A stretch of 64,000 bases of DNA. Origin: Sphingosinicella humi (GTDB lineage: Bacteria; Pseudomonadota; Alphaproteobacteria; Sphingomonadales; Sphingomonadaceae). The notes beneath the pieces were generated by a model. That model saw only the letters and a program-made list of their open reading frames with translations. It did not search any database and was not told the DNA's origin. The stretch lies in NCBI RefSeq assembly GCF_003129465.1, contig NZ_QFFF01000001.1, forward strand, positions 1,845,501-1,909,500, given 5' to 3'. The position numbers and the translations under genes are program-made. Positions 36,904 to 64,000 of the stretch are shown here, in pieces (the first letter of the stretch is position 1; each line of letters begins with the position of its first letter).

Positions 36904-37899
36904 CTAGCTTTCCAAGGCGAGGAGACGTTCGTGGAGCGGGCGCGGGACCGACACGCCTTCCGCAATTGTTCTGGCGCGCGCTGCATAACGGCGCTCGGAC
37001 GGCAACCGCGCGCCCTGCTCGGCAAACCCACTGAACAGAGCCTCGGCCCAGGCGGTGCCTTGATCGACGCGGCCTCCGGCCATCACGGCGGGATCGAACG
37101 CCATCACCAACTCGCCGTGGCAGGGGGCGAGCTTCAGATCCTCGTCGAACTCCATCGACGCGAGGCTGGTCCGATCGCCGATGAGCGGCCCGGCCATGAG
37201 CTCGATCATCGTCGAAAGCGCCGAGCCCTTGTGACCGCCGAAGGTCAGCATCGCACCGTCCAGCGCTGCGGAGGCATCCGTCGTGGGCGTCCCATCCGGG
37301 CCGAGACCGATGCCTTCCACTATGGGAGTGCCCTCCGACTTGCGCCGGGCGAGCTCGCTGCGCGCCATGGCGCTGGTAGCGAAGTCGAACACATAGGGAT
37401 GTCGCCCCGAGCGCGGCCAGCCGAAGGCGATGGGATTGGTGCCGAGCAACCCCCTAGTGCCGCCTGCGGGCGCGACCCAGGCGTGGCTGGGGGTCATGGC
37501 GAGGGCCGCCAAGCCGAGGTCGGTCAGTGCCTCGACTTCCGGCCACAAGGCCGAAAAATGGAAGCAGTCGTTGATGGCCATGGCCGCTATCCCGCACCGG
37601 CGCGCTTTCTCCACCAGGGAAGGGGTGCCGCGGTCGAAAGCCAAGCGCGAATAGCCATAGCCCGCATCCACCCGGACCAGCGAGGGGGTCACGTCCTCGA
37701 CCTTGGGCTCGGCATCGAGGGACAGCTTGCCCGAGCGGATAGTCATCACGCAGCCGGGCAGGCGGTGCAGCCCGTGCGAGGCGCAGGCGTCCCGCTCGCT
37801 CACCATGATGGTATGCGCCACCGCTTCGGCATGCGCTCGGGACAGACCGGCCCCGCTCAGCACCCGATAAGCCAGCGCGAATATCTCATCGAGCGACAT
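36904..37899 (-). CDS. Ldh_2-family imine reductase, hydroxyproline locus (copy 1)
   Basis: 331 residues of the malate/L-lactate/pyrroline-carboxylate reductase (Ldh_2) family: SERDACASHGLHRLPGCVMT, HFSALWPEVEALTDLGLAAL, TPSHAWVAPAGGTRGLLGTN and NPIAFGWPR. Members such as DpkA/LhpD-type enzymes reduce delta-1-pyrroline-2-carboxylate to proline with NAD(P)H. This fits the trans-3-hydroxyproline dehydratase nearby. ATG 37899 is preferred because the ATCGTATACGAT site at 37944 would crowd a start at 37935. A close paralogue lies at 59072. Other Ldh_2 members act on 2-oxo acids, so the substrate is inferred. Confidence 0.85.
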   Translation of the reverse strand: MSLDEIFALAYRVLSGAGLSRAHAEAVAHTIMVSERDACASHGLHRLPGCVMTIRSGKLSLDAEPKVEDVTPSLVRVDAGYGYSRLAFDRGTPSLVEKARRCGIAAMAINDCFHFSALWPEVEALTDLGLAALAMTPSHAWVAPAGGTRGLLGTNPIAFGWPRSGRHPYVFDFATSAMARSELARRKSEGTPIVEGIGLGPDGTPTTDASAALDGAMLTFGGHKGSALSTMIELMAGPLIGDRTSLASMEFDEDLKLAPCHGELVMAFDPAVMAGGRVDQGTAWAEALFSGFAEQGARLPSERRYAARARTIAEGVSVPRPLHERLLALES

Positions 37900-37943
37900 G
37901 ACCACGATGTCGCTAGTCTCGGAAACCACCACCATCTCCCATG

Positions 37944-37955
37944 ATCGTATACGAT
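37944..37955. promoter_or_regulatory. Predicted GntR operator, perfect palindrome (site A)
   Basis: ATCGTATACGAT is a perfect 12-base palindrome 45 bases before the Ldh_2 start. The same core CGTATAC recurs upstream of the other hydroxyproline genes (41192, 53687, 60127). FCD-type GntR regulators bind short palindromes of this kind, and one is encoded at 49589-50260. Confidence 0.65.
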
Positions 37956-38385
37956 TTTGCAGCCCCTACCATGGCAAGGTCAGGGGTCAAGCCGACAATC
38001 CATGGGAAGTGTTTCTGCATTAGGCACCAGTATTCGGCTGCTCTATTCTTTTTCGAAAAATGGTGGGCTGAAGTGCGCCAGACGGTATTTTGGCGAGCTT
38101 GACACCTAAAAATGGCGAGCCATATTGATTGCATCATGCGTGAAATTCTTCAGATCTTCCGCCCGGAACTGCACCCGGGAAGCAGTACCGCACGCCTATA
38201 GGCCCTGGGCCGGCTCATCCCTGCGGTGGGCGCTTCGACCCGGGGCTGGCGGCAGGACCGGTTTTCGTCCTGCCTGGCGGGGACAAAAAAATCCCCAATC
38301 GGAACAGCCATAGCGTCATCGGTGTCCAACGCCGCCGGGCGTTCCGCATCGTCTGAACGGGGGCTTTCGGATTTGGAGTTGTAGA
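37956..38385. other. Intergenic region with structured elements, no gene
   Basis: No ORF is supported. GGCAGGAC (38251-38258) pairs with GTCCTGCC (38267-38274), followed by GGGGA-CAAAAAAA-TCCCC, a second small hairpin with an A-rich loop. These could be a terminator or the leader of the gene at 38386. A TTGATTGCATCAT sequence near 38125 resembles an FNR box, but with the wrong spacing. Confidence 0.4.
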
Positions 38386-38613: not shown

Positions 38614-38635
38614 CGATCGGCGGAAAGACAAAGAG

Positions 38636-39106
38636 ATGCAGCCCGCACTCCAGCTTTCGTTCGCCGATAGTCTCGGCGGCCTGTGGGCCGCGCTCCACAA
38701 GGACGTGGAGCTGACTATTTGCGAAGACGAAGTTCATTATCTCAGGACCGTCGCCGTCACCCTCGATGACGACGTCACCTCGTGCCTGCTCCTGAGGAAG
38801 CTTCGAATGGCGCACATCGTTTGCAACGCTGAGCTTTCCCGCAAGACCGTGTCGATGAACAGCTATCTCGAGTTCGTCCACAACGGCGGGCCGCCGCAAT
38901 TCTGCCAGCTGATCCATCCGTCGCCTCACGCGCCCGCCTACGGGCTGCCGATCACCTCCCTTTTGGGGGCGGGGCTCATCGGGCTGCGCAGCGGCCAGAC
39001 CATCTTGTGGCCGGATGAACGCGGCACGCTGTGCGATTTGACGATCGTCCAGGTCGAGAAATGTCCCGGCCTGACGGACTGGCTCGGCCCGAGGTCACCA
39101 TCATGA
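38636..39106 (+). CDS. Rnk/GreA-C-terminal-domain-like protein
   Basis: 156 residues. The C-terminal third (PITSLLGAGLIGLRSGQTIL, then WPDERGTLCDLTIVQVEK) matches the GreA/GreB/Rnk C-terminal domain, close to the Rnk protein at 22893. The N-terminal part (ALQLSFADSLGGLWAALHKD) lacks the Rnk coiled region and is unlike GreA. It may bind RNA polymerase but lacks the finger needed for cleavage stimulation. Its TGA overlaps the next ATG by four bases. Confidence 0.7.
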   Translation: MQPALQLSFADSLGGLWAALHKDVELTICEDEVHYLRTVAVTLDDDVTSCLLLRKLRMAHIVCNAELSRKTVSMNSYLEFVHNGGPPQFCQLIHPSPHAPAYGLPITSLLGAGLIGLRSGQTILWPDERGTLCDLTIVQVEKCPGLTDWLGPRSPS

Positions 39107-39948
39107 ACGACACGCCCGCTCGACCGCTCTTTCTCTGGGTGACGCGATCCGCGCCCTTCAATCACGAGACCGCGGAACATCTTCAGGCGGCGGGGCATAA
39201 CCCGTTGAAGCTTCCCGTGCTGCACACGAGGCCGCTCGAGCACGACAGGGTCTCGGCTGACGTGGACGCGCTCGTCTTCACCAGCCCGAACGGCGTTCGC
39301 CATCATCGGTTCTGCGAGTCATTGGCGGGAACTCCGGTATTCGCGGTCGGCGATCGGACGGCAAAGCTCGCTCGCGATGCCGGCTACGCGAATGTCACTT
39401 CGGCCGGCGGCGATGTCGTCGATCTCTACGACCTCATTCGCACGCGCCTGGTGCCTCCGGCCCGAATCGTCCACCTCTCCGCGGCTGCGCCCGCAGGGGA
39501 CTTGGTTGGGCAGCTTCGCCAGGTCGGGTTCGACGCCGAGAGGCGGTCCGTCTACGAAAGCGTCGACACGGAATTTGACCAGCTCAGGCCTGCTTTGGCG
39601 GCGCTGCCCTGGGTTGACGGCGTCATCATCCACTCTCCACGCGCGGGCAAGCGTGTCGCGTCCTTCCTGGCCGATCTCAGCGGTCGCTGGAACGGTGCGG
39701 CCTATTGCATTTCGGAGGCGGCGGCCGCGCCTCTAAAGGGCCTTGGCGGGGTGCGCACCGAGGTCGCTCGGCGGCCCAACGATCGTGCATTGCGGGATCT
39801 CGTCGTGGCGACGATGAACGAGGATCAGGACAAAGACCCTTCGGACAAGACGTCCACGCCAGGACAGGGCGTCGTGGTCCCGTTTCGCCGGCCCAACCTG
39901 CCTCCCGCTCCCCATCCCGACGATCCGACACCCCCGAGCGCGGCATGA
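39103..39948 (+). CDS. hemD: Uroporphyrinogen-III synthase-like protein
   Basis: 281 residues. LFLWVTRSAPFNHETAEHLQ, DALVFTSPNGVRHHRFCESL, VFAVGDRTAKLARDAGYANV and IHSPRAGKRVASFLADLSGR follow the HemD two-domain fold. A proline-rich, disordered tail follows (PPAPHPDDPTPPSAA). HemD enzymes are weakly conserved, so function is plausible but not certain. It does not neighbour hemC, the usual partner, and may be a second copy. It overlaps the upstream gene by ATGA and the downstream 41-aa ORF likewise. Confidence 0.75.
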   Translation: MNDTPARPLFLWVTRSAPFNHETAEHLQAAGHNPLKLPVLHTRPLEHDRVSADVDALVFTSPNGVRHHRFCESLAGTPVFAVGDRTAKLARDAGYANVTSAGGDVVDLYDLIRTRLVPPARIVHLSAAAPAGDLVGQLRQVGFDAERRSVYESVDTEFDQLRPALAALPWVDGVIIHSPRAGKRVASFLADLSGRWNGAAYCISEAAAAPLKGLGGVRTEVARRPNDRALRDLVVATMNEDQDKDPSDKTSTPGQGVVVPFRRPNLPPAPHPDDPTPPSAA

Positions 39949-40076: not shown

Positions 40077-41117
40077 TCAGTCGCCTGCGCCCACCTGTGC
40101 GCCGAAACGAGCCGGCAAGGTGAAGCCGAGGCCGAGCGGGTCGTCGGCATGAATTTCGAAAACCGCCGTCCCACTACAGGCGGACCGGCCGGATACGCGC
40201 GCGCGGACGGCGCCCGACACCGGAGCGTCCAATAGCTCGATCACGCTTCCGCTGAAGGGAATTCCGGTGGGGCCAAAGAAGCGGCGTTCGACGCCGGGCG
40301 CAATGAGTCCGCGCGCATGATCCCGCGCCAGCCGCGCGGTGACGCCGCTGCCGGTGGGGCTGCGGTCGATCTGGCCGTCCGCGAAGACGCAGAGATTATA
40401 GGTCGGCTCAGGCGGCGGCGCGTCGTCGGTCAGAATCGTGCCGTAGAGGAAGCCCAGATCCTCCGCCTCGGGATGGACAATGTCGAGCGCTTTTCGGGCC
40501 GCGTCGGTAAGCGCGGCCGCGGCCGCGACCAGTCGGTCGAGCGGCGTCTCGAAGAAGTCGAGTCCGAGGCGGGACGCCGGCAGCACTGCGTAGAAGGCGC
40601 CGCCATAAGCGAGATCGAACGTGACCGATCCAAGGCCGGGGACATCGAGCTGAACGTCGGTCTGGCTGAGGAAGGCAGGCACGCTGTCGAAGGCCGTGGC
40701 GGTGACTCGGCCATCTTCGACCCGGCATCGGACGTCGACCACGCCGCAGGGGAGTTCCAGCGCGAATCGGGTCTCTGGCTCCACGGCCGGCAGGCGGCCG
40801 CTCTCCACCAGCCATTGGCCGAGCGCGATCGTCGCATGGCCGCACATGGTGCTGTAGCCCTCGCCGTGGGTGAACAGGGCGGCAAAGTCGGCGCGCGGAT
40901 CGCTCGGCTGGACCGGGATCACGCCATACATGCCGGCATGCCCCCGCGGCTCCAGCATCAGGGCTCGGCGAAGGTCGTCGTGGAGTCGCCGCGCCTCCTG
41001 GCGCTTGTCGAGGATCGTGGCGCCGGAAAGCTCCGGATAGCCGCCGGTGACGATGCGCACCGGCTCCCCGGCGGTGTGCATGTCGGTAACGAAAAGCCGC
41101 CTCACATCTGAGTTCAT
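40077..41117 (-). CDS. lhpH: trans-3-hydroxy-L-proline dehydratase (proline racemase family)
   Basis: 346 residues. Catalytic positions are Cys92 (TMCGHATIALG) and Thr255 (RSPTGSGVTAR). Proline racemases and 4-hydroxyproline epimerases have Cys at both; Thr in the second place is the mark of trans-3-hydroxyproline dehydratases, which yield delta-1-pyrroline-2-carboxylate. ATG 41117 follows AAGGAG. It is divergent from the TonB receptor, sharing the operator near 41190. The product would be reduced to proline by the Ldh_2 enzymes. Confidence 0.85.
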   Translation of the reverse strand: MNSDVRRLFVTDMHTAGEPVRIVTGGYPELSGATILDKRQEARRLHDDLRRALMLEPRGHAGMYGVIPVQPSDPRADFAALFTHGEGYSTMCGHATIALGQWLVESGRLPAVEPETRFALELPCGVVDVRCRVEDGRVTATAFDSVPAFLSQTDVQLDVPGLGSVTFDLAYGGAFYAVLPASRLGLDFFETPLDRLVAAAAALTDAARKALDIVHPEAEDLGFLYGTILTDDAPPPEPTYNLCVFADGQIDRSPTGSGVTARLARDHARGLIAPGVERRFFGPTGIPFSGSVIELLDAPVSGAVRARVSGRSACSGTAVFEIHADDPLGLGFTLPARFGAQVGAGD

Positions 41118-41182
41118 CAATCCGCTCCTTTGCCATTTCGACCTGTGGTGCGCCCGCTATTGACAGGGGTCAAGTGACGTAT

Positions 41183-41201
41183 ATCGTATTTCGTATACAT
41201 T
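41183..41201. promoter_or_regulatory. Predicted GntR operator between dehydratase and TonB receptor (site B)
   Basis: ATCGTATTTCGTATACATT contains CGTATAC at 41192-41198 and a second CGTAT half-site at 41185. It lies 66 bases before the dehydratase start and about 100 bases before the receptor start, so one site could serve both directions. Confidence 0.6.
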
Positions 41202-41301
41202 AAACGACCGCAAGATTCGGCGGGACGTGCGGGTGAAACCCCGGCGCGAACCACGGATGAAAAAGCGCGGCAAAAACATAAGGTTCTCAAGGGGAGACAT
41301 C

Positions 41302-44256
41302 ATGAAGGGTTCCAGCAAAAGACTATTTTCGTGTCGCCGCGCCTTGATGGCGACATCGTTCCTGTGCGGTGCTGCAATCGTCGCTCCGGCCGCGCTCGCG
41401 CAGGAGGCGCCGGCGCCGGCGGCGGAGCCGATTGGAGCCGCCGAAGTGGCGCCCTCGGAAGGCGCCGCGATCGTCGTCACCGGCTCGCGCTTGATCCGCA
41501 GCGATCTCGCTGCGCCGAGCCCGCTGACTGTGGTCGGCGAAAGCGACGTTAAGCTCTCGGGCAGCGTCACTCTCGAAAACACGATCAACGAATTTCCCCA
41601 GCTGTCGTCGGGCAACACGTCGAACGTCAACAATGGTGGCGGATCGGGCGTGCTGACCGCCAACCTGCGCGGCCTCGGCGCGACGCGGACACTGGTGCTG
41701 GTCAACGGCCGCCGCTTCATTCCGGCCAACTCGGACGGCCAGGTCGACCTCTCGTCCATTCCGGACGCGCTCATCAAGCGGGTCGAGATCATCACCGGCG
41801 GCGCCTCGGCGGTCTACGGCTCCGACGCGATTGCCGGTGCCATCAACTTCATCCTCGACGACAGCTTCGACGGTGTCGAAGCGAGCTACCAATATGGGCA
41901 GACCTTCCGGGACGACGGCGCCTCGCACAAGATCGACCTCACCGTCGGCTCCAACCTGGAGGATGGCCGCGGCAACGTCACCGTGTCGGGCTCCTACACG
42001 AAGCGTGATCCGATCTTTCAGTCGGGCCGCGCCTTCTCCCGCGTGCCGCTCGACACGATCAACGGTGAGCTGGTCCCCGGCGGCTCCAGTGCCATTCCCG
42101 GCACCCGCATCAGCCTCAGCAGCTCCCAGCGCGACCAGCTGGTCGGAGTGGACCTGACGCCGAGCGGTGCCTGCACCTCGATCACCGGCATCCGCTTCGG
42201 CGAGAACGGGCAGGTCCTCCCCTATTGCAACCCGGAGGACGCCTATAACTATTCGTCCTTCAACTATCTGCAGCGCCCGCTCGAGCGCTTCCAGGTGTCG
42301 ACGCTCGCCCGCTACGAGATCTCAGACGCGGTCGAGCTCTATGGCGAGGCCTATTACGTCAACACTCGCAACCGCTCCCAACTCGCGCCGGCGTCGGAGA
42401 CCCCGCTGACGCCGGGCGCGGGCAGCGGCACGCTGCTGATCCCCAACTACGCGACCAATTCCAGCCTGCTCCCGGCGGTTCGCGACTTCTTCACCAACAA
42501 TGCCGCGATCTTCGATCCGGACGGCGACGGCACCGCCGCCGTGATCGGCGCGGGCCGCCGCTACAGCGAGGTTGGACCGCGCGAGAACGATTATGAGCGC
42601 AACGCCTTCAGCCTCACCACCGGCCTGCGCGGATCGTTCGAGATGATCGGGCGCGACTGGAATTACGACAGTTTCTTCCAGTATCAGCGCAACCGCACCG
42701 ACACGCGGACGACCAACTACATCTCGCAGACCCGCCTCAGCCAGGGTCTCGACACGATCGTCGACGCCGACGGCAATATCGTCTGCCGCAACCAGACGCT
42801 GGGCTGCGTGCCGGTCAACATCTTTGGCCTCGACACCATCAGCCCGGAGGCGGCCGCCTTCATCACGCCGGTGAGGGCGAGCGACGACCGTTTCACCCGT
42901 ACGATGATGGGCGGCTCGCTGAGCGGCACTCTGTTCGACCTGCCGGCCGGGCCGGTGGCGCTCGCGCTCGGCAGCGAGTATCGCAAGGATCGTTACGTCT
43001 TCAATCCGAGCCCGCTCGACATTGCGCGTGAATACGGCTCGGTGTCGCAGTCGCCGGTCGAGGGCAGCACCAACGTCTCCGAAGTGTTCGGCGAACTGCG
43101 CATCCCGATCCTCGCCGACATGGCCTTTGCCGACGAACTCGCGATCGAGGGCGCCGCGCGCTACTCCGATTATGGTGGCGACAGCAGCGCGGTGGGCGGC
43201 GTTTTCACCTGGAAGGTCGGTGCCGAATATGCGCCGGTCGACTGGATCCGCTTCCGCTCGGCGTTCAACCGAGCCATCCGCGCGCCCACCATCAATGAGC
43301 TGAAGGATCCGATCAACACGGGCTTCACCTCGGGCGAGGATCCTTGCATCGCCTCGCGCAATCCGACCCAGGCCCAGCAGGACCTCTGCGTCGCCCAGGG
43401 TGTCGCACGGGCGGACCTTCCGACCTTCACTCAGGCGAACGTCGGCTTCGATGCCCGGACTGGAGGCAACCCGAACCTGACCGAGGAGCGTTCGAAGACG
43501 TTCACCGTGGGGGCAGTGATCTCGCCGCCCTTCATCCCAAACCTCAACCTCACAGTCGATTATTTTAACGTCACGGTCGACGACGCGATCGCGCGGATCA
43601 ACGCCAACCAAACGTTGAACGACTGCTTCACGACGCTGGATCAGAATTCGGCGACTTGCCGGGCGATCAACCGTTTCCCGAACGGCCAGATCAATTTCGT
43701 GTCGACCCAGCTCAGCAATATCGGTTCGCTGAAGGTTGAAGGCGTCGACGCGCAAGTCGATTACCGGATGGACCTGCCGTTCGGCCAGATCGGGGGCGAC
43801 AATGCCACGCTCGCGCTCAGCGCCGTGGCCAGCTTCCTGTTCGAGCGGTCGACGCAAGTGATCGCCGATCAGGATCCGCTCGATTGCGCCGGTCATTTCG
43901 GCGGCGGCTGCACGGGCAACGGGGTGTTCGCTTCGCCGGACTTCAAGCTGAACCTGAGCTCGACTTACGCTAGCGGCCCACTCTCCGTTCGGCTGGCGGG
44001 CCGGATGATCGGCGACATGAAGCTTTACCCAGGCATCATCGCTGCGGTCGAGAGCGCGCCGGCGCAGTGGTATTTCGACGCCGCATTCACCGCTGAGGTG
44101 ACGGAGGAGGTCGAGTTGTTCGGCGGCATCGACAATCTCTTCGACAACCAGCCGCCGATTCTCGGCACGGCGATCTCCGCCGATACCAATACCGACCCAT
44201 CCCTCTACGATGTCGTCGGCCGCCGCTTCTTCCTGGGAGCACGGCTGAGGTTCTGA
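41302..44256 (+). CDS. TonB-dependent outer membrane receptor
   Basis: 984 residues. A signal peptide ends at AALAQEA; the plug starts AIVVTGSRLIRSDLAAPSPL, with VLVNGRRFIPANSD and KRVEIITGGASAVYGSDAIA, and a beta barrel follows to the terminal Phe (FFLGARLRF). AAGGGGAG precedes ATG 41302. It belongs to the sphingomonad and xanthomonad group of large receptors for sugars or peptides. Genes downstream (amidohydrolase, DUF885 peptidase) and its operator tie it to hydroxyproline use, so peptides or glycopeptides are likely substrates. The substrate is inferred from context. Confidence 0.93.
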   Translation: MKGSSKRLFSCRRALMATSFLCGAAIVAPAALAQEAPAPAAEPIGAAEVAPSEGAAIVVTGSRLIRSDLAAPSPLTVVGESDVKLSGSVTLENTINEFPQLSSGNTSNVNNGGGSGVLTANLRGLGATRTLVLVNGRRFIPANSDGQVDLSSIPDALIKRVEIITGGASAVYGSDAIAGAINFILDDSFDGVEASYQYGQTFRDDGASHKIDLTVGSNLEDGRGNVTVSGSYTKRDPIFQSGRAFSRVPLDTINGELVPGGSSAIPGTRISLSSSQRDQLVGVDLTPSGACTSITGIRFGENGQVLPYCNPEDAYNYSSFNYLQRPLERFQVSTLARYEISDAVELYGEAYYVNTRNRSQLAPASETPLTPGAGSGTLLIPNYATNSSLLPAVRDFFTNNAAIFDPDGDGTAAVIGAGRRYSEVGPRENDYERNAFSLTTGLRGSFEMIGRDWNYDSFFQYQRNRTDTRTTNYISQTRLSQGLDTIVDADGNIVCRNQTLGCVPVNIFGLDTISPEAAAFITPVRASDDRFTRTMMGGSLSGTLFDLPAGPVALALGSEYRKDRYVFNPSPLDIAREYGSVSQSPVEGSTNVSEVFGELRIPILADMAFADELAIEGAARYSDYGGDSSAVGGVFTWKVGAEYAPVDWIRFRSAFNRAIRAPTINELKDPINTGFTSGEDPCIASRNPTQAQQDLCVAQGVARADLPTFTQANVGFDARTGGNPNLTEERSKTFTVGAVISPPFIPNLNLTVDYFNVTVDDAIARINANQTLNDCFTTLDQNSATCRAINRFPNGQINFVSTQLSNIGSLKVEGVDAQVDYRMDLPFGQIGGDNATLALSAVASFLFERSTQVIADQDPLDCAGHFGGGCTGNGVFASPDFKLNLSSTYASGPLSVRLAGRMIGDMKLYPGIIAAVESAPAQWYFDAAFTAEVTEEVELFGGIDNLFDNQPPILGTAISADTNTDPSLYDVVGRRFFLGARLRF

Positions 44257-44266
44257 TGTTCCCCCC

Positions 44267-44300
44267 GCGCCGCCGGTCCCCCCGGCGGCGCATTTCTTTT
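44267..44300 (+). terminator. Hairpin with T-run after the TonB receptor
   Basis: GCGCCGCCGG (44267-44276) pairs with CCGGCGGCGC (44282-44291), then ATTTCTTTT. It lies 10 bases after the receptor stop and 20 before the next start, so it could lower expression of downstream genes relative to the receptor. Confidence 0.75.
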
Positions 44301-44319
44301 GGGAAGAGGATTGTCGAAG

Positions 44320-45963
44320 ATGAAGAATGTTCGCAGCCGATTGATGCGCTCCCTAGGCGCCACCGCCCTGCTGGCCGCGATGGTGGCCGCCCCCCTTCCG
44401 GCCGCGCCCGGCGCGTCGGTTCCGGATCCGATCCCTGCCCGCACCGAAGGGATCGGTCCTTATCAGCGGATCGTCCTCCGCAACGTCACCATCGTCAACG
44501 GCACGGGCGCGCCTGCGCAGGGGCCTTATGACATCGTCCTCTCGGGCGACCGCATCGCCGAGATCAAATCGATCGGTTCGCCAGGCGCCATTGACGAAAA
44601 TCGCCGCGCCGCGCCCGGCGATCATGAGATCGACCTCACCGGCCATTATGTCCTGCCCGGCTTCGTCGACTCCCACGTCCATCTGCACAGCCTGGAGGAC
44701 GGCCAGAACGTCCCCTCCGAATATGTGCTGAAGCTGTGGCTGGCGAACGGCGTCACGTCGGTACGCGACGTCGGCAGCAGCGGGCGCCCGATCGAATGGC
44801 TGGTCGACATCAAGCGCCGCAGTGCTGCCAACGAAATCGTCGCACCCCGCATCGACATCTATCCGATGTTCCAGGACATCCTCGACAAGCCGGTCAACGA
44901 TCCGGAGATGGCGCGCCACGCCGTGCGCGAGGCCAAGCGTCGCGGCGCCGACGGCATCAAGTTCATCGGCGGCGAGGAGGATGTGCTCTACGCCGCGCTC
45001 GACGAAGCCGAGAAGGTCGGCCTCAGGACGACCATGCACCATGCCCAGCAGGTGGTCGCCTATGCCGACGTGCTCCGCACCTCCGCCCACGGCCTCGACT
45101 CGATGGAGCATTGGTACGGCCTTCCCGAAGCCATGTTCACCGATCGCTCGGTCCAGGATTGGCCGACCGATTATGTGAACAATGACGAGCAGATGCGCTT
45201 CGGCGAGGCCGGACGTCTTTGGAAGCAGGCGGCCGAGCCCGGCTCCGACGCCTGGAACAAGGTGATGGACACGTTGCTGGAGCGCGATTTCGTGCTCAGC
45301 CCCACCTTCACCGCCTATCTCACCAGCCGCGACTTCATGCGCATGAGCCGCGCCACCTGGCACGACGAATATACGCTGCCGTCGCTGTGGGACTGGTATC
45401 GCCCCAGCCGCACCAATCACGGTTCCTACTGGTTCGACTGGACCACCGAGGACGAGATGGCGTGGAAGGAGAATTACCGTCTCTGGATGCGCTTCGTAAA
45501 CGACTACAAGAACCGGGGCGGCACCGTGACGGTGGGGAGCGACAGCGGCTTCATCTACAATCTCTACGGCTTCGGCTACACTCAGGAGATGCTGCTGCTG
45601 CGCGAGGCCGGCTTCAGCCCGCTGGAGGTGATCCACGCCGCCACGCAGGCAGGCGCGGAGGCGCTCGGCCATGAAAACGAACTCGGCACCATCCGCGTCG
45701 GCCGCAAGGCGGACCTCGTCATCGTGGACGGCAACCCGATCGCGAACCTGAAGCTGCTGTTCGGCACCGGCACGGTCAAGCTCAACGACGAGACCAAGCA
45801 GGTCGAGCGCGTCGGCGGCATCCGCTACACGGTCAAGGACGGCATCATCTACGACGCGCGCGAACTGCGCGCGGAGGTGCGCGACATGGTGGCGCGGCAG
45901 AAGACGGAGCGGAACATTCCGGCCGGCCCGATGAAGATCGAGGCGGTCGACCTCACCCGATAA
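44320..45963 (+). CDS. Exported amidohydrolase-family peptidase
   Basis: 547 residues with a signal peptide (MKNVRSRLMRSLGATALLAA to PLPAAPGA). It has the amidohydrolase fold: metal motif DSHVHLHS (His119, His121), DGIKFIGGEEDVLY, a later His pair MHHAQQVVAY, and GSDSGFIYN. Members include imidazolonepropionase-like enzymes and Xaa-Pro dipeptidases, and the nearest role here is hydrolysis of imino-peptides outside the cytoplasm. It lies between the TonB receptor and a DUF885 peptidase. The substrate is not shown by the sequence. Confidence 0.8.
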   Translation: MKNVRSRLMRSLGATALLAAMVAAPLPAAPGASVPDPIPARTEGIGPYQRIVLRNVTIVNGTGAPAQGPYDIVLSGDRIAEIKSIGSPGAIDENRRAAPGDHEIDLTGHYVLPGFVDSHVHLHSLEDGQNVPSEYVLKLWLANGVTSVRDVGSSGRPIEWLVDIKRRSAANEIVAPRIDIYPMFQDILDKPVNDPEMARHAVREAKRRGADGIKFIGGEEDVLYAALDEAEKVGLRTTMHHAQQVVAYADVLRTSAHGLDSMEHWYGLPEAMFTDRSVQDWPTDYVNNDEQMRFGEAGRLWKQAAEPGSDAWNKVMDTLLERDFVLSPTFTAYLTSRDFMRMSRATWHDEYTLPSLWDWYRPSRTNHGSYWFDWTTEDEMAWKENYRLWMRFVNDYKNRGGTVTVGSDSGFIYNLYGFGYTQEMLLLREAGFSPLEVIHAATQAGAEALGHENELGTIRVGRKADLVIVDGNPIANLKLLFGTGTVKLNDETKQVERVGGIRYTVKDGIIYDARELRAEVRDMVARQKTERNIPAGPMKIEAVDLTR

Positions 45964-45985
45964 GAGGATGCAAGGAGGGCATATA

Positions 45986-53661: not shown

Positions 53662-53684
53662 TGGGTCCTCCGTTGCATGTCAAT

Positions 53685-53700
53685 TTCGTATACGGTATAT
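53685..53700. promoter_or_regulatory. Predicted GntR operator in the divergent promoter (site D)
   Basis: TTCGTATACGGT (53685-53696) matches ATCGTATACGAT at ten of twelve positions; GGTATATGAT follows as a weaker half-repeat. It lies 24 bases before the dapA-like start and 14 before the oxidase start, covering both promoters. Confidence 0.65.
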
Positions 53701-53709
53701 GATCCCGCG

Positions 53710-57379: not shown

Positions 57380-57856
57380 ATGAGAAATGCCCTTCTGGCC
57401 TGCGCGGCCCTTTTCCTCGCCGTTCCGGCCGTGGCGCAGCCGCCCGAACGTCCCTGGCTCGCCGGCGTCAACGAGGAGGCGGAGAAGGCCGCCATCCGCG
57501 ACGTCATCGCTCGCATGGAGGCGGCTTGGAACCGCGGTGACTTCAGGGGCTATATGGAAGGCTTCGCCAACCCCGACGTCATTTTCGTGTCGCGCGGCCA
57601 GTTCCAGAAGGACTGGCAGGGCACGCTCGATCATTACATCCGCGATTATGGCGCGTCGGAGGATACGCGCGGCAAGCTCCACTTCTACGACATCCGCATC
57701 GAGATGCTGGCGCCGGACACCGCGCAGCTGATCAGCCGCTACACGCTTGATAGACCGAAGGATCGGCAGGACGGCATCAACACCCGCCTCATGCGCAAGC
57801 GCGACGGAAAATGGGTCATCGCGCTCAACCACGTGTCCTCGGTGGTAACGCCCTGA
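57380..57856 (+). CDS. Exported SnoaL/DUF4440-like protein
   Basis: 158 residues with a signal peptide (MRNALLACAALFLAVPAVAQ). The mature part is an NTF2-like fold (AAIRDVIARMEAAWNRGDFR; IFVSRGQFQKDWQGTLDHYI; RLMRKRDGKWVIALNHVS). AGGGAG lies before the ATG. Family members bind small molecules or act as isomerases or accessory subunits. It ends the oxidase-GH127 operon, but its part in the pathway is unknown. Confidence 0.78.
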   Translation: MRNALLACAALFLAVPAVAQPPERPWLAGVNEEAEKAAIRDVIARMEAAWNRGDFRGYMEGFANPDVIFVSRGQFQKDWQGTLDHYIRDYGASEDTRGKLHFYDIRIEMLAPDTAQLISRYTLDRPKDRQDGINTRLMRKRDGKWVIALNHVSSVVTP

Positions 57857-57866
57857 CAGTCCTTCA

Positions 57867-57948
57867 CCCCGGCGAAAGCCGGGGCCCAAGAACACCGCCG
57901 TGTTCGATCCTGTGAAACCGTGTTCTTGGGTCCCGGATCGAGTCCGGG
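57867..57948. repeat. REP-like compound palindrome
   Basis: CCCCGGC-gaaa-GCCGGGG (57867-57884), then a long inverted pair GGGCCCAAGAACAC (57882-57895) with GTGTTCTTGGGTCCC (57920-57934), and CCCGGA...TCCGGG (57932-57948). It lies between two convergent operons and could stop transcription from both. Similar elements are dispersed in sphingomonad genomes. Confidence 0.7.
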
Positions 57949-57968
57949 ATGACGTGTAGGCGAAAACC

Positions 57969-59048
57969 CTACTTCCCCTCCGTCCGCGCCAGCAGGTCGA
58001 TCAGCTCGTCCTTCCAGAACTTCGCCCAGGTGTGGGTCGAATGGCCGCGGGTGTCGTCGGTCGCCTTGATGAGGACGTAGCGCGCGTTCGGCATCCGCGC
58101 GGCTGCCTTTTCGGCGATGCCATAGTCCCAGGGGTTGATGAAGTCGTCGGACGAATTGACCCAGGTGATCGGGGTGGTGATCTTCTCCAGCCCCGGCCAG
58201 GGATTGTAGTTCCGCGAGGAATCGAACTGGTAGATCATGTCGTTGGCGTCGAGGCTCTTGATGCTCGCCTCGATCCGCTCGACGATATAGGCGTCCGCCT
58301 TCTCGCGGGTGCCATATTCCTTCTGGAGATTGAGCGGGGCGAAGCCGACCACCTGCAAGAGGCTCGCCGCGGTGCGCAGGCCAAGCACCGGCTGCGTCTC
58401 ATAGTCGCCGCCGTTCCAGGCCGGGTCCGCCTTGATCCCTTCGATGACGAGCTTGCGCCACATGCGGTTGTGGCCGGCGATCTCGGTCGGAAGGCACGCC
58501 ATCGGCATCATCGCCTGGACGAAGTCCGGCCAGCGCTCGCCCCACATGAAGCCGTGCATGCAGCCCATCGAGGTGCCCATCATCAGCCTCAGCCGATCGA
58601 CCTTCAGCCCTTCGGTGAGCATCCGGTGCTGCGCCTCGATCATGTCGGCATAGTCATAGTCGGGAAAGTCCATGGCGAGGCCGTCGCTGGGCTTGGACGA
58701 TTTCCCGTGGCCGATATTGTCGGGAAGGATGATGTAATAGCGACTGATGTCGAGCGGCTGGCCCGGCCCGAACAGCTCGGTGAATTGCGGCCGCAGGAAG
58801 GAATGGCCGCTGCCGCCGGTGCCGTGGAGTACCATCACCGCGTTGGTGACGCGCCCGTCGGCGTCGCGCTTGGGCGTGCCCAAGGTGGAGACATGGATGC
58901 GCAGCTTCTCCATCGTCTCGCCGGTGCCGAAGCGGAAATCGTCGAGGACGATGTCCTGCTCCTTGACCTCAGAGGCATAGTCCGTCTGGGCGGCGGCGGG
59001 GGCCGCGAGGAAGAGCAGGGCGGCGAGGGCAGCTTTCGATAGGCGCAT
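57969..59048 (-). CDS. Exported alpha/beta hydrolase, MetX-like
   Basis: 359 residues with a signal peptide (MRLSKAALAALLFLAAPAAA). The fold matches homoserine O-acetyltransferase-like hydrolases: nucleophile Ser in GTSMGCMHGFMWGERW, acid Asp in NSSDDFINPWDY, His in RGHSTHTWAKFW. An acetyl-CoA-dependent role is unlikely in the periplasm, so it probably acts as an esterase or amidase on exported material. ATG 59048 is preferred because GGAG is 6 bases upstream. It follows the Ldh_2 gene by 23 bases in the same operon. Confidence 0.82.
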   Translation of the reverse strand: MRLSKAALAALLFLAAPAAAQTDYASEVKEQDIVLDDFRFGTGETMEKLRIHVSTLGTPKRDADGRVTNAVMVLHGTGGSGHSFLRPQFTELFGPGQPLDISRYYIILPDNIGHGKSSKPSDGLAMDFPDYDYADMIEAQHRMLTEGLKVDRLRLMMGTSMGCMHGFMWGERWPDFVQAMMPMACLPTEIAGHNRMWRKLVIEGIKADPAWNGGDYETQPVLGLRTAASLLQVVGFAPLNLQKEYGTREKADAYIVERIEASIKSLDANDMIYQFDSSRNYNPWPGLEKITTPITWVNSSDDFINPWDYGIAEKAAARMPNARYVLIKATDDTRGHSTHTWAKFWKDELIDLLARTEGK

Positions 59049-59071
59049 GAACATCTCCGATCGGAACAAGG

Positions 59072-60100
59072 CTAGGCTGAAAGCGGCTTGTCGAGCAACG
59101 CCTGGATATCGTCGAGCAGGCGGGCCGGGATCAGCACGCCCTCCTGTAGGCTTCGCGTCCGCGCCTCGTATCGGCGCTGCGAGGGGAGGCGCGCGCCCTG
59201 GGCGGTGATGCCTTCGAACAGATGCTCCGCCCGCGCCAGATGCTCGGCCGCGGCCGAGCCGAGGAAGCCGGCGGGATCGATGGCGATGATGAGCTCGCCG
59301 CCGAACGGGGAGGCCTTGGCGCCGTCGTCCGCGGCGAGGGAGTCCGCGCTGGTGAGATCGCCGATCAGCGGGCCGGCGATGAGCTCCACCATCGCCGCCA
59401 GCGCCGACCCCTTGTGGCCGCCGAAGGTCAGCATCGATCCGGCCAGCGCCTCGCCGGCGTCGGTCGTGGGCTGCCCCTGCGGATCGAGGCCCCAGCCGAG
59501 GGGAATCGGCTTGCCCTCGCGCCGGTGCAGCTCGATCTCGCCGCGCGCCACCGCGCTGGTCGCGAAATCGAAGACGAACGGATGCTCGCCAGGCCGTGGC
59601 CAGCCGAAGGCGATGGGATTGGTGCCGAAGATCGGCGCGGTGCCGCCGGCCGGCGCTACCCAGGCGTGGCTGGGGGTGAAGGCGAACGCCACCAGGCCGT
59701 CACCGGCAAGCGTCTCGACCTCGGGCCAGAGCGCCGCGAAATGGACGCTGTTGTTGACCGCCAGCGCGGCGATGCCGCAGCGCTTGGCCTTGTCGATGAG
59801 GATCGGACGCCCTTCCTCGAATCCGATCTGCGCGTAGCCGCCCTTGCCGTCGACCCGCACCAGGGCAGGGGCAATGTCGTGCACCTCGGGCTCCGCGTCG
59901 ACGACCACCTTTCCTTCCCGGATGGTGTGCGCGCAGACGAGCAATCGATAGATGCCGTGCGACGTGCAACCGTCGCGCTCGCCGGCGACCATCGTCTCCG
60001 CGACCGCCTTCGCCTGACGTTCGCCGAGGCCGAAATGCGTGAGCACCGTCAGCGCGAGGTCGCGGACCTCGGCCAGTGCCAATCTCTTGTGACTAGCCAT
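59072..60100 (-). CDS. Ldh_2-family imine reductase, hydroxyproline locus (copy 2)
   Basis: 342 residues, paralogous to copy 1 at 36904: GERDGCTSHGIYRLLVCAHT, HFAALWPEVETLAGDGLVAF, FTPSHAWVAPAGGTAPIFGT and NPIAFGWPRPGEHPFVFDFA. It would reduce delta-1-pyrroline-2-carboxylate or a related imine or keto acid with NAD(P)H. GGAGG is five bases before the ATG at 60100, better than the ATG at 60103. The site at 60125 lies 25 bases upstream. Confidence 0.85.
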   Translation of the reverse strand: MASHKRLALAEVRDLALTVLTHFGLGERQAKAVAETMVAGERDGCTSHGIYRLLVCAHTIREGKVVVDAEPEVHDIAPALVRVDGKGGYAQIGFEEGRPILIDKAKRCGIAALAVNNSVHFAALWPEVETLAGDGLVAFAFTPSHAWVAPAGGTAPIFGTNPIAFGWPRPGEHPFVFDFATSAVARGEIELHRREGKPIPLGWGLDPQGQPTTDAGEALAGSMLTFGGHKGSALAAMVELIAGPLIGDLTSADSLAADDGAKASPFGGELIIAIDPAGFLGSAAAEHLARAEHLFEGITAQGARLPSQRRYEARTRSLQEGVLIPARLLDDIQALLDKPLSA

Positions 60101-60124
60101 CATTACCTCCGAAGAGGGCGGTAT

Positions 60125-60136
60125 ATCGTATACAAA
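60125..60136. promoter_or_regulatory. Predicted GntR operator upstream of Ldh_2 copy 2 (site E)
   Basis: ATCGTATACAAA shares the first nine bases with the palindrome at 37944. It lies in the 60-base gap between the alcohol dehydrogenase stop and the Ldh_2 start, 25 bases before the ATG. Confidence 0.6.
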
Positions 60137-60160
60137 TCTCCCGGCAAGTCCGGCATGTGC

Positions 60161-61162
60161 TCAGCCGCCAGGCGTAAGCACGGCCGCGCCCTCGATCTTG
60201 CCGGCGCGGAGCCGGGCCAGCGCTTCGTTCGCCTGACCCAGCGGGAAGGCCTCCGTCGAGACGCGGATTGGAGCTTCGGCGGCGATGCGGAAGAAGTCGC
60301 GGCCATCTGCACGGGTGAGGTTGGCGACGGAGCGGATCGACCGCTCTTCCCACAGATCGCTATAGGGAAAGGCGGGAATGTCGCTCATGTGGATGCCCGC
60401 GCAGACGATGCGGCCGCCTTTGCGCACGGCCTTCAAGGCAAGGGGAACCAGCGCGCCAACCGGGGCGAAGATTATGGCGGCATCAAGCGGCGCGGGCGGC
60501 CTTTCGTCCGAACCGCCGGCCCAGACGCAGCCGAGATCGAGGGCGAAGCGCTGGCCCTCGTCGTCGCCGGGGCGGGTGAAGGCGAAGACCTCGCGGCCCT
60601 GCCAACGGGCGACTTGCGTCAGGATGTGCGCGGCCGCGCCGAAGCCGTAGAGGCCGACGCGGCGGGCCTCTCCCGCCGCCACGAGCGAGCGGTATCCGAT
60701 GAGGCCGGCGCATAGCAGCGGGGCGGCTTCCACGTCATCATAGGCCGCCGGGATCGCAAAGCAGAAGCGGGCATCGGCGATGGCGTGGCTGGCGAAGCCG
60801 CCGTCGCGGCTGAAGCCGGTGAAGGTGGGGCGATCGCAGAGATTCTCCCGATCCTCGCGGCAATAGAGACAGGCGCCGCACGTCCCGCCCAGCCACGGGA
60901 CCCCGACACGCTCGCCGATCGAGAAGCCCGTCGCGGCATCCCCCGCCGCCAGCACTCGCCCGACGATCTCATGCCCGGGCACGATGGGCAGCTGCGACCG
61001 GATGTCGCCATCGACGATGTGGAGATCGGTCCGGCAGACGCCGCAGGCGGAAATCTCGATCAGCAGATCGTTGGGCCGGGGCTCGGGAACCGGACGCTCG
61101 ACGAGGCGCAGCGCCTTGCGTGGCGCGTCGAGCTGCATCGCCTGCATGACCGCCTTGGACAT
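60161..61162 (-). CDS. Zinc-binding alcohol dehydrogenase (AdhA type)
   Basis: 333 residues. Catalytic zinc ligand segment SACGVCRTDLHIVDGD, GHEIVGRV, structural zinc loop GGTCGACLYCREDRENLCDR, and NAD fold VGLYGFGAAAHILTQVARW. It oxidises alcohols or reduces aldehydes. It is downstream of DUF3297 and upstream of the Ldh_2 gene. The N-terminus resembles the fragment at 1-86. Its part in the locus is not evident; it could act on an aldehyde from hydroxyproline or threonine-like breakdown. Confidence 0.9.
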   Translation of the reverse strand: MSKAVMQAMQLDAPRKALRLVERPVPEPRPNDLLIEISACGVCRTDLHIVDGDIRSQLPIVPGHEIVGRVLAAGDAATGFSIGERVGVPWLGGTCGACLYCREDRENLCDRPTFTGFSRDGGFASHAIADARFCFAIPAAYDDVEAAPLLCAGLIGYRSLVAAGEARRVGLYGFGAAAHILTQVARWQGREVFAFTRPGDDEGQRFALDLGCVWAGGSDERPPAPLDAAIIFAPVGALVPLALKAVRKGGRIVCAGIHMSDIPAFPYSDLWEERSIRSVANLTRADGRDFFRIAAEAPIRVSTEAFPLGQANEALARLRAGKIEGAAVLTPGG

Positions 61163-61456: not shown

Positions 61457-61498
61457 GGCGCGGCTCTTTGGCCCTCCGACCCCGGCCCCGTCAAGCTT

Positions 61499-62647
61499 TC
61501 ACCAGCCGTTGAAGCGCGGCCAGCGGCCGGTCACCGCGCCGTCGGGCCCGAGCACATGATAGGCGTCGAACTGGCTCGCGGTGGCGCAGGCATGGTTGGG
61601 AAGAATGCGGAGCTGGGTGCCGACCGGCAGGTCGGGGAGCACAGCACCGGAGCCGGGGCGGACGGCGATGATGCCATGCTCCTGGTTGGCGCTGGTCATG
61701 ATGAGATCGGGCCAGGGGAGGCCGCTCGCGTCGCAGACGAGGCCGTAGCCCTGGTCCACCGCTTGGTTCGCCGTGCCCCGGTCGCGCGACATCGCCATCC
61801 AGCCGGCGTCGACCAATATCCAGCCCTTGTCCTGCTGGTGGCCGATGACGGTGGCGAGCACCGAGAGGGCGATCTCATCGATTGAGCAGACGCCGAGGCC
61901 CGCCATGACGAGATCGAAGAAGTGATAAACGCCGGCGCGGACCTCGGTGATACCGTCCAGGTCTTTCGTGTTGAGGGCGGTCGGCGTCGAGCCGATGCTG
62001 GCGACCGGCGCCTCGAAGCCGGCGGCACGAAGCGTCGCAGCGGCGGCGAGGGTGGTCTCGCGCTCCCGCCTCGCCGCCTCGCCAAGCTCGGCTTGGCTGC
62101 GGGCGTCGTAGGAGCCGCCATAATGGGTCATCACCCCGCGCGGCACGGCTCCGCCCGACGCCAAGGTGCGGGCGATCGCGATGAGCCGGTCCCTATCCTC
62201 CGGCGGCACGCCACCCCGGTGGCCGTCGCTGTCGATCTCGATCAGCACCGGGATGGGCTCGCCCGAAGCCCGCGCCGCCGCGGCAATCGCTTCGGCGGCG
62301 ACGAGATTGTCGGTGATGATGGTGAGGTCGATCTCCCGTCGCCTGATCTCGATCACCCGATCGAGCTTCGCCTGCGCGATGCCGACCGCGTACAAAATGT
62401 CCGTGATGCCGGCCTCGGCGAAGCGCTCGGCCTCCAGCAGTGTCGAGACGGTGATCGGTCCGTTCGACCCGCCGAGCACGCGCCGGGCGACCTCGATCGA
62501 CTTCGCCGTCTTAAGGTGCGGGCGCAGGACGACGCCGTCACCGGCCTCGGCCAGTTGCGCACGCATCCGCTCGATATTGCGTTCGAGCTTCGCCGGGTCG
62601 AGCAGCAACGCCGGCGTTTCGATCGTCTCCAGCGGCTGCTCGTCCAT
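61499..62647 (-). CDS. DSD1-family PLP enzyme (D-threonine aldolase/D-serine dehydratase-like)
   Basis: 382 residues. PLP Lys46 lies in VLRPHLKTAKS; the alanine-racemase-type barrel follows (EIDSDGHRGGVPPEDRDRLI; GSTPTALNTKDLDGITEVRA); zinc ligands lie in LPNHACATASQFDAYHVL near 352-354. Members act on D-threonine, D-serine or 3-hydroxy-D-aspartate. Next to DUF885 and dehydrogenase genes it may handle D-hydroxy-amino acids from peptides, but the substrate cannot be fixed. ATG 62647 matches the family start. Confidence 0.87.
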   Translation of the reverse strand: MDEQPLETIETPALLLDPAKLERNIERMRAQLAEAGDGVVLRPHLKTAKSIEVARRVLGGSNGPITVSTLLEAERFAEAGITDILYAVGIAQAKLDRVIEIRRREIDLTIITDNLVAAEAIAAAARASGEPIPVLIEIDSDGHRGGVPPEDRDRLIAIARTLASGGAVPRGVMTHYGGSYDARSQAELGEAARRERETTLAAAATLRAAGFEAPVASIGSTPTALNTKDLDGITEVRAGVYHFFDLVMAGLGVCSIDEIALSVLATVIGHQQDKGWILVDAGWMAMSRDRGTANQAVDQGYGLVCDASGLPWPDLIMTSANQEHGIIAVRPGSGAVLPDLPVGTQLRILPNHACATASQFDAYHVLGPDGAVTGRWPRFNGW

Positions 62648-62657
62648 GGCTGTCACC

Positions 62658-64000
62658 TCAGCGCTGCGCCTCCGCAATATAGGCATCGATCTGCGCTTCC
62701 AACACGTCGAGCGGGAGCGATCCGTTCTCCAGCACGGCGGCGTGGAAATCGCGCACGTCGAACTTGTCACCGAGCGCCTTCTCCGCCTTGGCCCGCAGCT
62801 CCAATATCTTCAGCTGGCCGATCTTGTAGCTCGTCGCCTGGCCGGGATTGTTGATGTAGCGCTCCACTTCCTTGACGATGTCGCGCTCGGAGAGGAGCGA
62901 ATTCTCCCGGAAATACTCGATCGCTTGCTCGCGGCTCCAGCGCTTGTGGTGGAGGCCGGTGTCGGTGACGAGGCGGACTGCACGCCAGAGCTCGAGCGAG
63001 AGGCGCCCGAAGTCCGAATAGGGATCCTGGTAGAAACCCATCTCCTTGCCGAGCTTCTCCGAATAGAGGCCCCAGCCTTCGCCATAGGCGCCGTAGCCGC
63101 CGAACCGGCGGAACTTGGGAACGTTCGGCAGCTCCTGGGCGAGCGCGGACTGGAAATGATGGCCCGGCGCGCCCTCATGATAGCTGATCGCCTCGATCTG
63201 GGGTTTGAGCACCTGCGTCATGTCGGCGAGGTTGACGTAATAGATGCCGGGGCGGGAGCCGTCGGGCGACGGGCGGTTGTAGAAGGCGACCGCGGCCGTC
63301 TCCTCCCGCCACTTCTCGACGGCGCGGACCTCCAGCGGCGCCTTGGGCAGGCGCCGGAAATATTGCGGCGCCACCCCCATCACCTGATCGATGTAGGCGT
63401 TGGCCTCCTTCAGATACTGCGCCCGGCCCGCTTCGGTGTTGGGGAAGTGGAACTGCTCGCCGGTCTTGAGATGCTCGAAGAACTGCTGGAGCGTGCCCTT
63501 GAAGCCCACCTTCGCCTTGATCGCTTCCATCTCGCCATGGATGCGCGCGACCTCGTCGAGGCCGATCTGGTGGATTTGGTCGGCGCTGAGGTCGGTGGTG
63601 GTCGAATAGCGAAGCTGGCTCGCATAATATTCGGCGCCGCGCGGCAGGTCCCAGGCGCCGTTATTGTCGGTCGCCAGCGGTTCGATCGCGTCGAGGGCGG
63701 CGAACATGGTGTCGTAGCCGCGCTTGAACGGGCCGGTCAGCGCCGCGGAAGCCTCGGCGATCAGCCGCTCCTTAACCTCGGGCGGAGCGGTGAGGGCGCT
63801 CACCTTCTTCTTGAAGTCGGCAAAGAGGGTGCTGTCGGGGCCATCGGTGAAGGGCGCGCCGGTGATGACCTTCTTCGCATCGGCGCGGGCCGGCTCGAAA
63901 TTGAGCTTGGGCGGGACGATGCCCATCTCGGCTTGGCGGCGGACGTTGGCCGAGACTTCGCTCATCACCCGCTCGACCTCCTTCAGACGCGAGATATAGG
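62658..64000 (-). CDS. DUF885 metallopeptidase, 5' part outside window
   Basis: At least 447 residues, reading in from the right edge: the frame is open upstream of 63968 (ISRLKEVERVMSEVSANVRR), so the start lies outside. HEGAPGHHFQSAL is the zinc motif, and FGGYGAYGEGWGLYSEKLGK and WRAVRLVTDTGLHHKRWSRE follow as in the paralogue at 45986. It leads an operon with the DSD1 enzyme (10-base gap), DUF3297 and alcohol dehydrogenase. Peptide hydrolysis is the family role. Confidence 0.87.
   Translation of the reverse strand, partial: YISRLKEVERVMSEVSANVRRQAEMGIVPPKLNFEPARADAKKVITGAPFTDGPDSTLFADFKKKVSALTAPPEVKERLIAEASAALTGPFKRGYDTMFAALDAIEPLATDNNGAWDLPRGAEYYASQLRYSTTTDLSADQIHQIGLDEVARIHGEMEAIKAKVGFKGTLQQFFEHLKTGEQFHFPNTEAGRAQYLKEANAYIDQVMGVAPQYFRRLPKAPLEVRAVEKWREETAAVAFYNRPSPDGSRPGIYYVNLADMTQVLKPQIEAISYHEGAPGHHFQSALAQELPNVPKFRRFGGYGAYGEGWGLYSEKLGKEMGFYQDPYSDFGRLSLELWRAVRLVTDTGLHHKRWSREQAIEYFRENSLLSERDIVKEVERYINNPGQATSYKIGQLKILELRAKAEKALGDKFDVRDFHAAVLENGSLPLDVLEAQIDAYIAEAQR

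Follow-up and report, generated by a model that had tools for sequence, protein, structure and literature searches.

A 64-kb stretch of the 3.03 Mb Sphingosinicella humi genome (C1:1845501-1909500; hereafter the window) carries genes for hydroxyproline catabolism together with a gene for an enzyme of glycoside hydrolase family 146 (GH146), and these genes share a predicted operator. We consider it probable, from their sequences and arrangement, that they form a hydroxyproline-scavenging regulon with an added sugar-removal step, in which arabinose would be stripped off to reach the hydroxyproline. An earlier, sequence-only reading had put forward a single regulon joining sugar removal to full hydroxyproline breakdown, and this is strongly supported by gene order, including translational coupling, by conservation in other genera and by the shared operator.

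Profile scans with Pfam and NCBIfam placed regulon-type genes between 36.9 and 60.1 kb of the window and recovered every gene named in that reading: TonB receptor, DUF885 protein, amidohydrolase, epimerase, oxidase, DapA-type deaminase, aldehyde dehydrogenase (ALDH), dehydratase, two Ldh_2 reductases, permease and GntR regulator. At the core of the cluster, two divergent rows of genes leave one short, operator-bearing region. The minus-strand row consists of a DapA-family 1-pyrroline-4-hydroxy-2-carboxylate deaminase (52741-53661; PF00701, 1.6e-57), a 4-hydroxyproline 2-epimerase of the Pro_racemase family with a Cys/Cys pair (51717-52715; NF010578, 2.6e-162), an ALDH that is of the alpha-ketoglutarate semialdehyde type by its best model (50268-51707; PF00171), a GntR/FCD regulator that is likely a repressor (49589-50260; PF07729, PF00392) and, as the final gene, an APC-family amino acid permease (48115-49551; PF13520). 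The plus-strand row consists of an FAD-dependent D-hydroxyproline oxidase/dehydrogenase (DAO; open reading frame 53677-54999; PF01266, 1.5e-48), the predicted GH146-like beta-L-arabinofuranosidase (54996-57368; PF07944, PF20736, PF20620) and a DUF4440/SnoaL-like protein (57380-57856; PF14534, 4.6e-12). The DAO stop and the GH146 start overlap as ATGA, an arrangement of translational coupling, and DUF4440 starts 12 bases past the GH146 stop.

The predicted trans-4-hydroxyproline pathway is complete in the cluster (epimerase, DAO, DapA-type deaminase and ALDH), and with the GntR regulator these genes make up a HypR-type set. The epimerase alone of the pathway enzymes clears an equivalog cut-off, that for 4-hydroxyproline epimerase (539.6 versus 376 bits). 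The ALDH stays below its cut-off (NF042993, 418 bits versus 770), as does DAO, for which the top NCBIfam model is D-amino acid dehydrogenase. Genes with a predicted role in peptide uptake and cleavage lie on the plus strand: a TonB-dependent receptor, which is a putative importer of hydroxyproline (glyco)peptides (41227-44256; PF00593, PF07715), an exported amidohydrolase, possibly prolidase-like (44299-45963; PF01979), and an exported DUF885 protein, a putative metallopeptidase (45968-47773; PF05960, 3.9e-144). The amidohydrolase matches Xaa-Pro dipeptidase/prolidase models and structures weakly, and the solved relatives of the DUF885 protein have no functional name. For trans-3-hydroxy-L-proline (T3Hyp) there is a predicted dehydratase of the Pro_racemase family on the minus strand (40077-41120). 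Its closest solved relative is the T3Hyp dehydratase 7qpo (307 bits), with which its Cys/Thr pair matches in the alignment, and its score with NF045511 is below the cut-off (275 versus 540 bits). Ldh_2 copy b (59072-60103, minus strand), likely a 1-pyrroline-2-carboxylate reductase, has as nearest solved structures 1wtj/2cwf, delta1-piperideine-2-carboxylate reductase (238 bits), and would be a fitting partner of the dehydratase.

The operator and the conserved gene set

The cluster promoters have in common a predicted operator of the type ATCGTATACNGTATA. Its core, TCGTATAC, occurs at 7 distinct places in the genome, 4 of which are within the cluster (before Ldh_2 copy a, in the gap between the T3Hyp dehydratase and the TonB receptor, in the DapA/DAO gap and before Ldh_2 copy b); the remaining three are inside open reading frames, and the backward control of the core occurs 20 and 28 times in the genome. 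Sites were scored with a matrix built on 11 DapA/DAO sites of relatives, with the GH146 upstream regions held out, and the cut-off of 16 was chosen once scan results were at hand. In the gap that separates the divergent DapA and DAO operons, the operator TTTCGTATACGGTATA (53684-53699) scores 26.0, and most of the relatives listed have a site at the same place. Because it falls within the first codons of the DAO open reading frame as listed (53677), DAO likely starts near 53710. A palindromic operator, ATCGTATACGAT, with the core on both strands lies upstream of Ldh_2 a (37941-37958, score 18.5), another site lies upstream of Ldh_2 b (60122-60139, score 19.8, one of the core places), and overlapping operator-like sites occupy the T3Hyp dehydratase/TonB receptor gap (41175-41204, scores 17.0 and 16.6, core at 41191). 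Directly upstream of the GntR gene there is a weak operator-like site (50296-50313, score 15.5).

The operator recurs in the GH146 loci of relatives, for which we took the best 79 of 373 relatives with flanks of up to 10 kb. Matrix sites scoring at least 16 precede GH146 in 40/79 loci, comprising 23 of the 26 whose flank holds an epimerase at 55% identity or more and 17 of the 53 others, which thus carry the operator with no such epimerase beside them. With 40 column-shuffled matrices, and likewise with ten base-shuffled sets, the count was 0 or 1. The count of 40 is based on tblastn GH146 starts, and starts taken from open reading frames give 38/79. Three epimerase loci have no site in the scored stretch (L015, L056 and L071), although in L056 a site lies at a greater distance upstream, at 4080. 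Homologues of the other genes are found in the same 79 loci as follows: DapA in 27, DAO in 27, GntR in 25, Ldh_2 in 25, APC in 17, DUF885 in 37, alpha/beta hydrolase in 6 and DUF4440 in 4. TonB receptor homologues (51-63%) are present in L013, L016, L049, L056 and L061, and an M24 prolidase-like gene, whose best solved relatives are termed proline dipeptidase, accompanies the epimerase in 21 of these 26 loci.

Among 149 genomes of the family, the epimerase was found in 17 and a GH146 of at least 58% identity in 10, and all 10 of the latter have both (Fisher 1.8e-11, across 10 genera and uncorrected for phylogeny; the 58% line was drawn once the data were seen). In nine of the ten the epimerase is within 10 kb of GH146, and in the tenth it is on another contig. 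When any GH146/127 match is counted, 11/16 genomes have the epimerase (p 3.2e-9). Nine further genomes of the family have a close GH146, and in 8 of them an operator precedes it. The string TCGTATACNGTAT occurs in 10/17 epimerase genomes versus 8/132 others of the family (p 5e-7), its backward control matching in 3/149. Both the epimerase and a close GH146 are absent from G053 and G129, the two genomes of the same genus in the sample.

In a sample of 398 genomes of the phylum, GH146 was found in 13, the epimerase in 51 and both in 6. Of the genomes with GH146, six have a best match of at least 47%: all four at 54% or above (our own genome included) have the epimerase at a distance of 13 kb or less, and the two at 53% and 47% have no epimerase. 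G272 and G459 possess both genes, but far apart or on different contigs. The operator precedes 3 of the 11 phylum-sample GH146s, the three nearest. Since the link fails for distant GH146s, we restrict the claim to a single clade. In a FastTree phylogeny of 100 GH146s, all 52 operator-labelled rows (the window GH146 being labelled by the operator of its operon) fall in one 74-row clade with support 99, and none of the 26 rows outside carries the label. Explaining the label takes 9 changes along the tree, in which one long branch (L099) is uncertain. The ten genera and the tree reduce, without removing, the effect of common descent. The co-occurrence and operator counts put the gene grouping far beyond chance.

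A search for the same gene set in other sphingomonads, suggested by the sequence-only reading, found most of it in Sphingobium sp. SYK-6. About 33 kb of that genome hold APC, GntR, epimerase, DapA, DAO, one Ldh_2, GH146, DUF885 and DUF4440 genes, and also the alpha/beta hydrolase, with an operator about 130 bases upstream, the amidohydrolase (70%), the TonB receptor (56%) and the T3Hyp dehydratase.

A GH146 glycosidase in a hydroxyproline operon

The sequence-only reading had taken the glycosidase for a HypBA1-type GH127 enzyme, an assignment ruled out by sequence, domain content and fold. In sequence searches the nearest structure is that of BT0349 (5opj), the founding member of GH146, with 501.7 bits, followed by the GH146 enzyme Bll3HypBA1 at 185.1, compared with 88.6 bits for the top GH127 (4qjy) and 55.5 bits for HypBA1. 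Foldseek with the predicted model (mean pLDDT 91) gave the same order (5opj 1.1e-68, Bll3HypBA1 1.9e-38, best GH127 2.7e-31, HypBA1 5.6e-27). Identity to BT0349 is 36%, and the two proteins share their fold, the order of their domains and a jelly-roll domain at the C-terminus; identity to the HypBA1 entries of the fold search is 17-18%. A Pfam scan found no PF20737 (Glyco_hydro127C) in the protein, whose C-terminal domain is DUF6805/CBM35-like. By sequence and predicted model, the glycosidase is a member of GH146 with the BT0349 architecture; its closest named GH146 relative is from Sphingosinicella (78%).

The Cys pair noted from the sequence is present. E351, C353, C420 and C421, aligned to BT0349, are invariant in 27 aligned relatives, as is E333, the predicted acid/base Glu of GH146. 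For the Cys3-Glu ligands of the GH146 zinc site we follow PMC10850190. By eye, the N-terminal SRRLLLAS resembles a twin-arginine signal. Refiling the enzyme helps the hydroxyproline hypothesis, because GH146 contains two characterised hydroxyproline-arabinosidases, XeHypBA1, acting mainly on Araf-beta-Hyp, and Bll4HypBA1, acting on Araf-beta-Hyp of hydroxyproline-rich glycoproteins (PMC10850190). As described in the same paper, the family also takes in enzymes for arabinan and arabinogalactan proteins (AGPs).

Substrate and the fate of the arabinose

In the mechanism that we propose, the GntR protein would keep the genes repressed until hydroxyproline or one of its products appears. Hydroxyproline-containing glycopeptides would enter through the TonB receptor, the exported GH146 would take beta-L-arabinofuranose off hydroxyproline, the exported DUF885 protein and amidohydrolase (in relatives, the M24 prolidase) would free hydroxyproline from peptides and the APC permease would import it. 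L-hydroxyproline would then pass through D-hydroxyproline, pyrroline-4-hydroxy-2-carboxylate and alpha-ketoglutarate semialdehyde to alpha-ketoglutarate, and T3Hyp would be dehydrated and then reduced to proline. Extensin-like arabinosides appear to be the likeliest substrate, with AGPs, short hydroxyproline-arabinosides and green-algal hydroxyproline-rich glycoproteins as alternatives.

The genome has no match to AraA, a single IlvD/EDD protein with no second one found and no match to GH43; GH121 was not searched for. With these genes missing, removal of the sugar probably serves access to hydroxyproline. Judging from gene content, the strain probably does not eat arabinose, and the sugar would be waste or an obstacle and the amino acid the food. 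The further proposal of a dedicated extensin-use system is supported in part: the link between hydroxyproline and arabinose held, but with no GH43 or AraA match and a single IlvD/EDD the evidence does not reach as far as dedication to extensin. Of the extensin-degrading enzyme set (HypAA, HypBA2, HypBA1), the GH43 alpha-1,3-arabinofuranosidase had no match in this genome.

Several observations weigh against a hydroxyproline-arabinoside regulon. Among the relatives, 53 of the 79 loci have no epimerase of at least 55% in the flank (18/79 are shorter than 20 kb), and a homologue of the window ALDH is present in 2/79, while the search of 40 kb of SYK-6 found none. Seven of the 17 epimerase genomes of the family have no close GH146, so that dependence is one-way, full-length GH146s of 49-53% occur without the epimerase in G045 and G091, and the T3Hyp dehydratase is found in 3/149 genomes, which makes the 3-hydroxyproline branch accessory. 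As for the operator, the site in the window lies 1.3 kb upstream of GH146, ahead of its operon, one of the three core places outside the cluster (C1:94445, within an open frame) scores 17.1, and the link of the GntR protein, a predicted repressor, to the operator is one of neighbourhood. As for the enzyme, BT0349 sits in a locus for the pectin rhamnogalacturonan I (RG-I) and Bll3HypBA1 is beta-1,3-specific on AGP and arabinan (PMC10850190), so that membership of GH146 is by itself no proof of action on hydroxyproline-arabinosides. With no GH43 found, the enzyme that normally takes the terminal alpha-1,3-arabinose off Ara4-Hyp is missing, which would close that path of trimming it, and the lack of AraA and of a second IlvD/EDD leaves room for other arabinose pathways.

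AGPs are the main rival substrate. GH146 would then strip beta-1,3-Araf from hydroxyproline-rich AGPs and the regulon would consume AGP backbones rather than extensin, a variant that we regard as unlikely. AGP backbones likewise give hydroxyproline, and a GH146 enzyme, Bll3HypBA1, cuts Araf-beta-1,3 on AGP (PMC10850190). However, no galactanase was found among the genes scanned (29.3 kb to the window end) and no GH43 in the genome. W182 is invariant in 27 sequences and probably corresponds to BT0349 W162 (numbering matched here), a position at which Bll3HypBA1 has Phe/Ile.

It is less probable still that GH146 is an arabinan or pectin enzyme sharing the operon by chance or through common plant debris, with the regulon being a general scavenger of hydroxyproline and collagen peptides. 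T3Hyp dehydratase fits collagen. BT0349 belongs to an RG-I locus, and in Alteromonadales the known HypR regulons include collagenases and peptidases (PMC5343134). Yet every genome among the 149 with a GH146 of at least 58% also has the epimerase (10/10) and the reverse does not hold (10/17), the operator precedes GH146 in 17/53 loci without a neighbouring epimerase, and no arabinan enzyme was found among the scanned cluster genes. The least likely alternative is that the organism also eats arabinose and that both pathways meet at alpha-ketoglutarate semialdehyde, where the oxidative L-arabinose route ends and for which the operon holds a dehydrogenase-like gene; we found it unsupported, since with one IlvD/EDD protein and no AraA match neither standard arabinose route looks complete.

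Outlying genes, variants in relatives and known systems

Ldh_2 copy a lies at 36904-37935 (minus strand; PF02615, 1.5e-83), and a HemD gene that looks unrelated to the hydroxyproline set lies inside the stretch (39031-39948, plus strand). An alpha/beta hydrolase with an exported-looking N-terminus (57969-59069, minus strand; PF00561) is 2 bases downstream of Ldh_2 b and is probably co-transcribed with it. Between DUF4440 and this hydrolase, the stretch 57850-57990 is, by eye, rich in inverted repeats (CCCCGGC..GCCGGGG and CCCGGAT..GTCCGGG types) and looks like a dispersed repeat. The regulon, placed at 36904-64000 by the sequence-only reading, probably ends near 60.1 kb. Beyond it, the ADH (60161-61162) and D-serine dehydratase-like (61499-62770) genes were rejected as members: neither has a match in any of the 79 loci or a homologue in the 40 kb of SYK-6, and in neither the window past 60139 nor the flank L003 did the matrix scan find a site scoring at least 9. 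The D-serine dehydratase/D-threonine aldolase-like gene adjoins a tandem pair of DUF885 genes and a large sensor kinase of the PAS/GAF type (window 61499-64000, L003:5159-12583), a region in which the matrix scan found no operator. The DUF885 copies b and c cross-match copy a in the same loci and are indistinguishable by this count.

The composition of the loci varies among relatives, some of which have a fuller system. A DUF5695-cluster gene is divergent from GH146, with the operator between them, in ten loci (L021, L022, L024, L026, L028, L031, L035, L038, L041 and L070). The L026 protein (7124-9943) has a predicted fold like that of the polysaccharide lyase BACCELL_00875 (model pLDDT 69, moderate), and Pfam was run on one member of the cluster, L061. 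DUF5695 is a candidate new carbohydrate-active enzyme of the regulon in some Sphingomonas. A GH43-cluster gene directly follows GH146 in 9/79 loci, eight of them from Asticcacaulis (Pfam on one, L037), and L016 has a POT-family transporter. Asticcacaulis machinosus (L032, L057) and A. endophyticus (L036, L068) have two GH146 copies each, all with the operator, and in both species one copy adjoins hydroxyproline genes. L031, from a record titled Bacillus sp. 2B10, carries a cluster of the sphingomonad type and falls within Sphingomonas in a GH146 tree; the record is probably misnamed or contaminated. Outside the Proteobacteria, GH146 and GH127 occur together with DapA and an epimerase-family gene in L071 (Bacteroidetes, 57% epimerase) and in L078 (Armatimonadetes, 37% relative); neither locus has the operator.

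Each half of the proposed system has precedents. The HypR regulon of Sinorhizobium meliloti and other Proteobacteria, as described in PMC5343134, likewise has a GntR regulator, epimerase, oxidase, deaminase and alpha-ketoglutarate semialdehyde dehydrogenase, with peptidases as members and, in several Alteromonadales, a TonB transporter. The comparison covered gene content, and the account drawn on here names no glycoside hydrolase, whereas our cluster has GH146. Xanthomonas euvesicatoria (XeHypBA1/XeHypBA2/XeHypAA; PMC6085000) has a secreted beta-L-arabinofuranosidase acting on Araf-beta-Hyp, XeHypBA1, which PMC10850190 assigns to GH146. However, the abstract and Discussion of PMC6085000 mention no hydroxyproline catabolic genes, while here the pathway is in the same operon. 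In Bifidobacterium longum, HypBA1/HypBA2/HypAA and Bll4HypBA1 similarly remove beta-L-Araf oligosaccharides from hydroxyproline-rich glycoproteins, but HypBA1 is a GH127 enzyme and bifidobacteria are described as using the sugar. BT0349 of Bacteroides thetaiotaomicron, so close in architecture, differs in its reported RG-I pectin setting from the window enzyme with its hydroxyproline operon. GH127 has already been proposed to act on hydroxyproline-rich algal glycoproteins in Latescibacteria (PMC4454575). In the titles and abstracts searched (full texts being mostly outside the scope), none joins GH127/GH146 with hydroxyproline catabolism. The new point is the placing of a probable hydroxyproline-arabinosidase and hydroxyproline breakdown under what looks like one switch, each being already known alone.

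From the perspective of the family, these findings give a testable substrate for a large clade of GH146, and the operator is a means of finding further members of the regulon, with Sphingobium SYK-6 as a known strain carrying the system. We see an even chance that the system is a protein-utilisation regulon widespread in alphaproteobacteria, in which taking off glycans would serve amino-acid nutrition, the arabinose coat of plant or green-algal hydroxyproline-rich glycoproteins would be discarded and one operator family would govern TonB uptake, GH146 (with DUF5695 in some Sphingomonas), prolidases and hydroxyproline catabolism. X. euvesicatoria is unable to use L-arabinose, and the paper on its enzymes raises the question of why they are kept (PMC6085000); access to hydroxyproline would give a reason for their presence in bacteria that do not eat arabinose. 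If the regulon is indeed so widespread, it would also suggest why xanthomonads unable to use the sugar retain hydroxyproline-arabinosidases.

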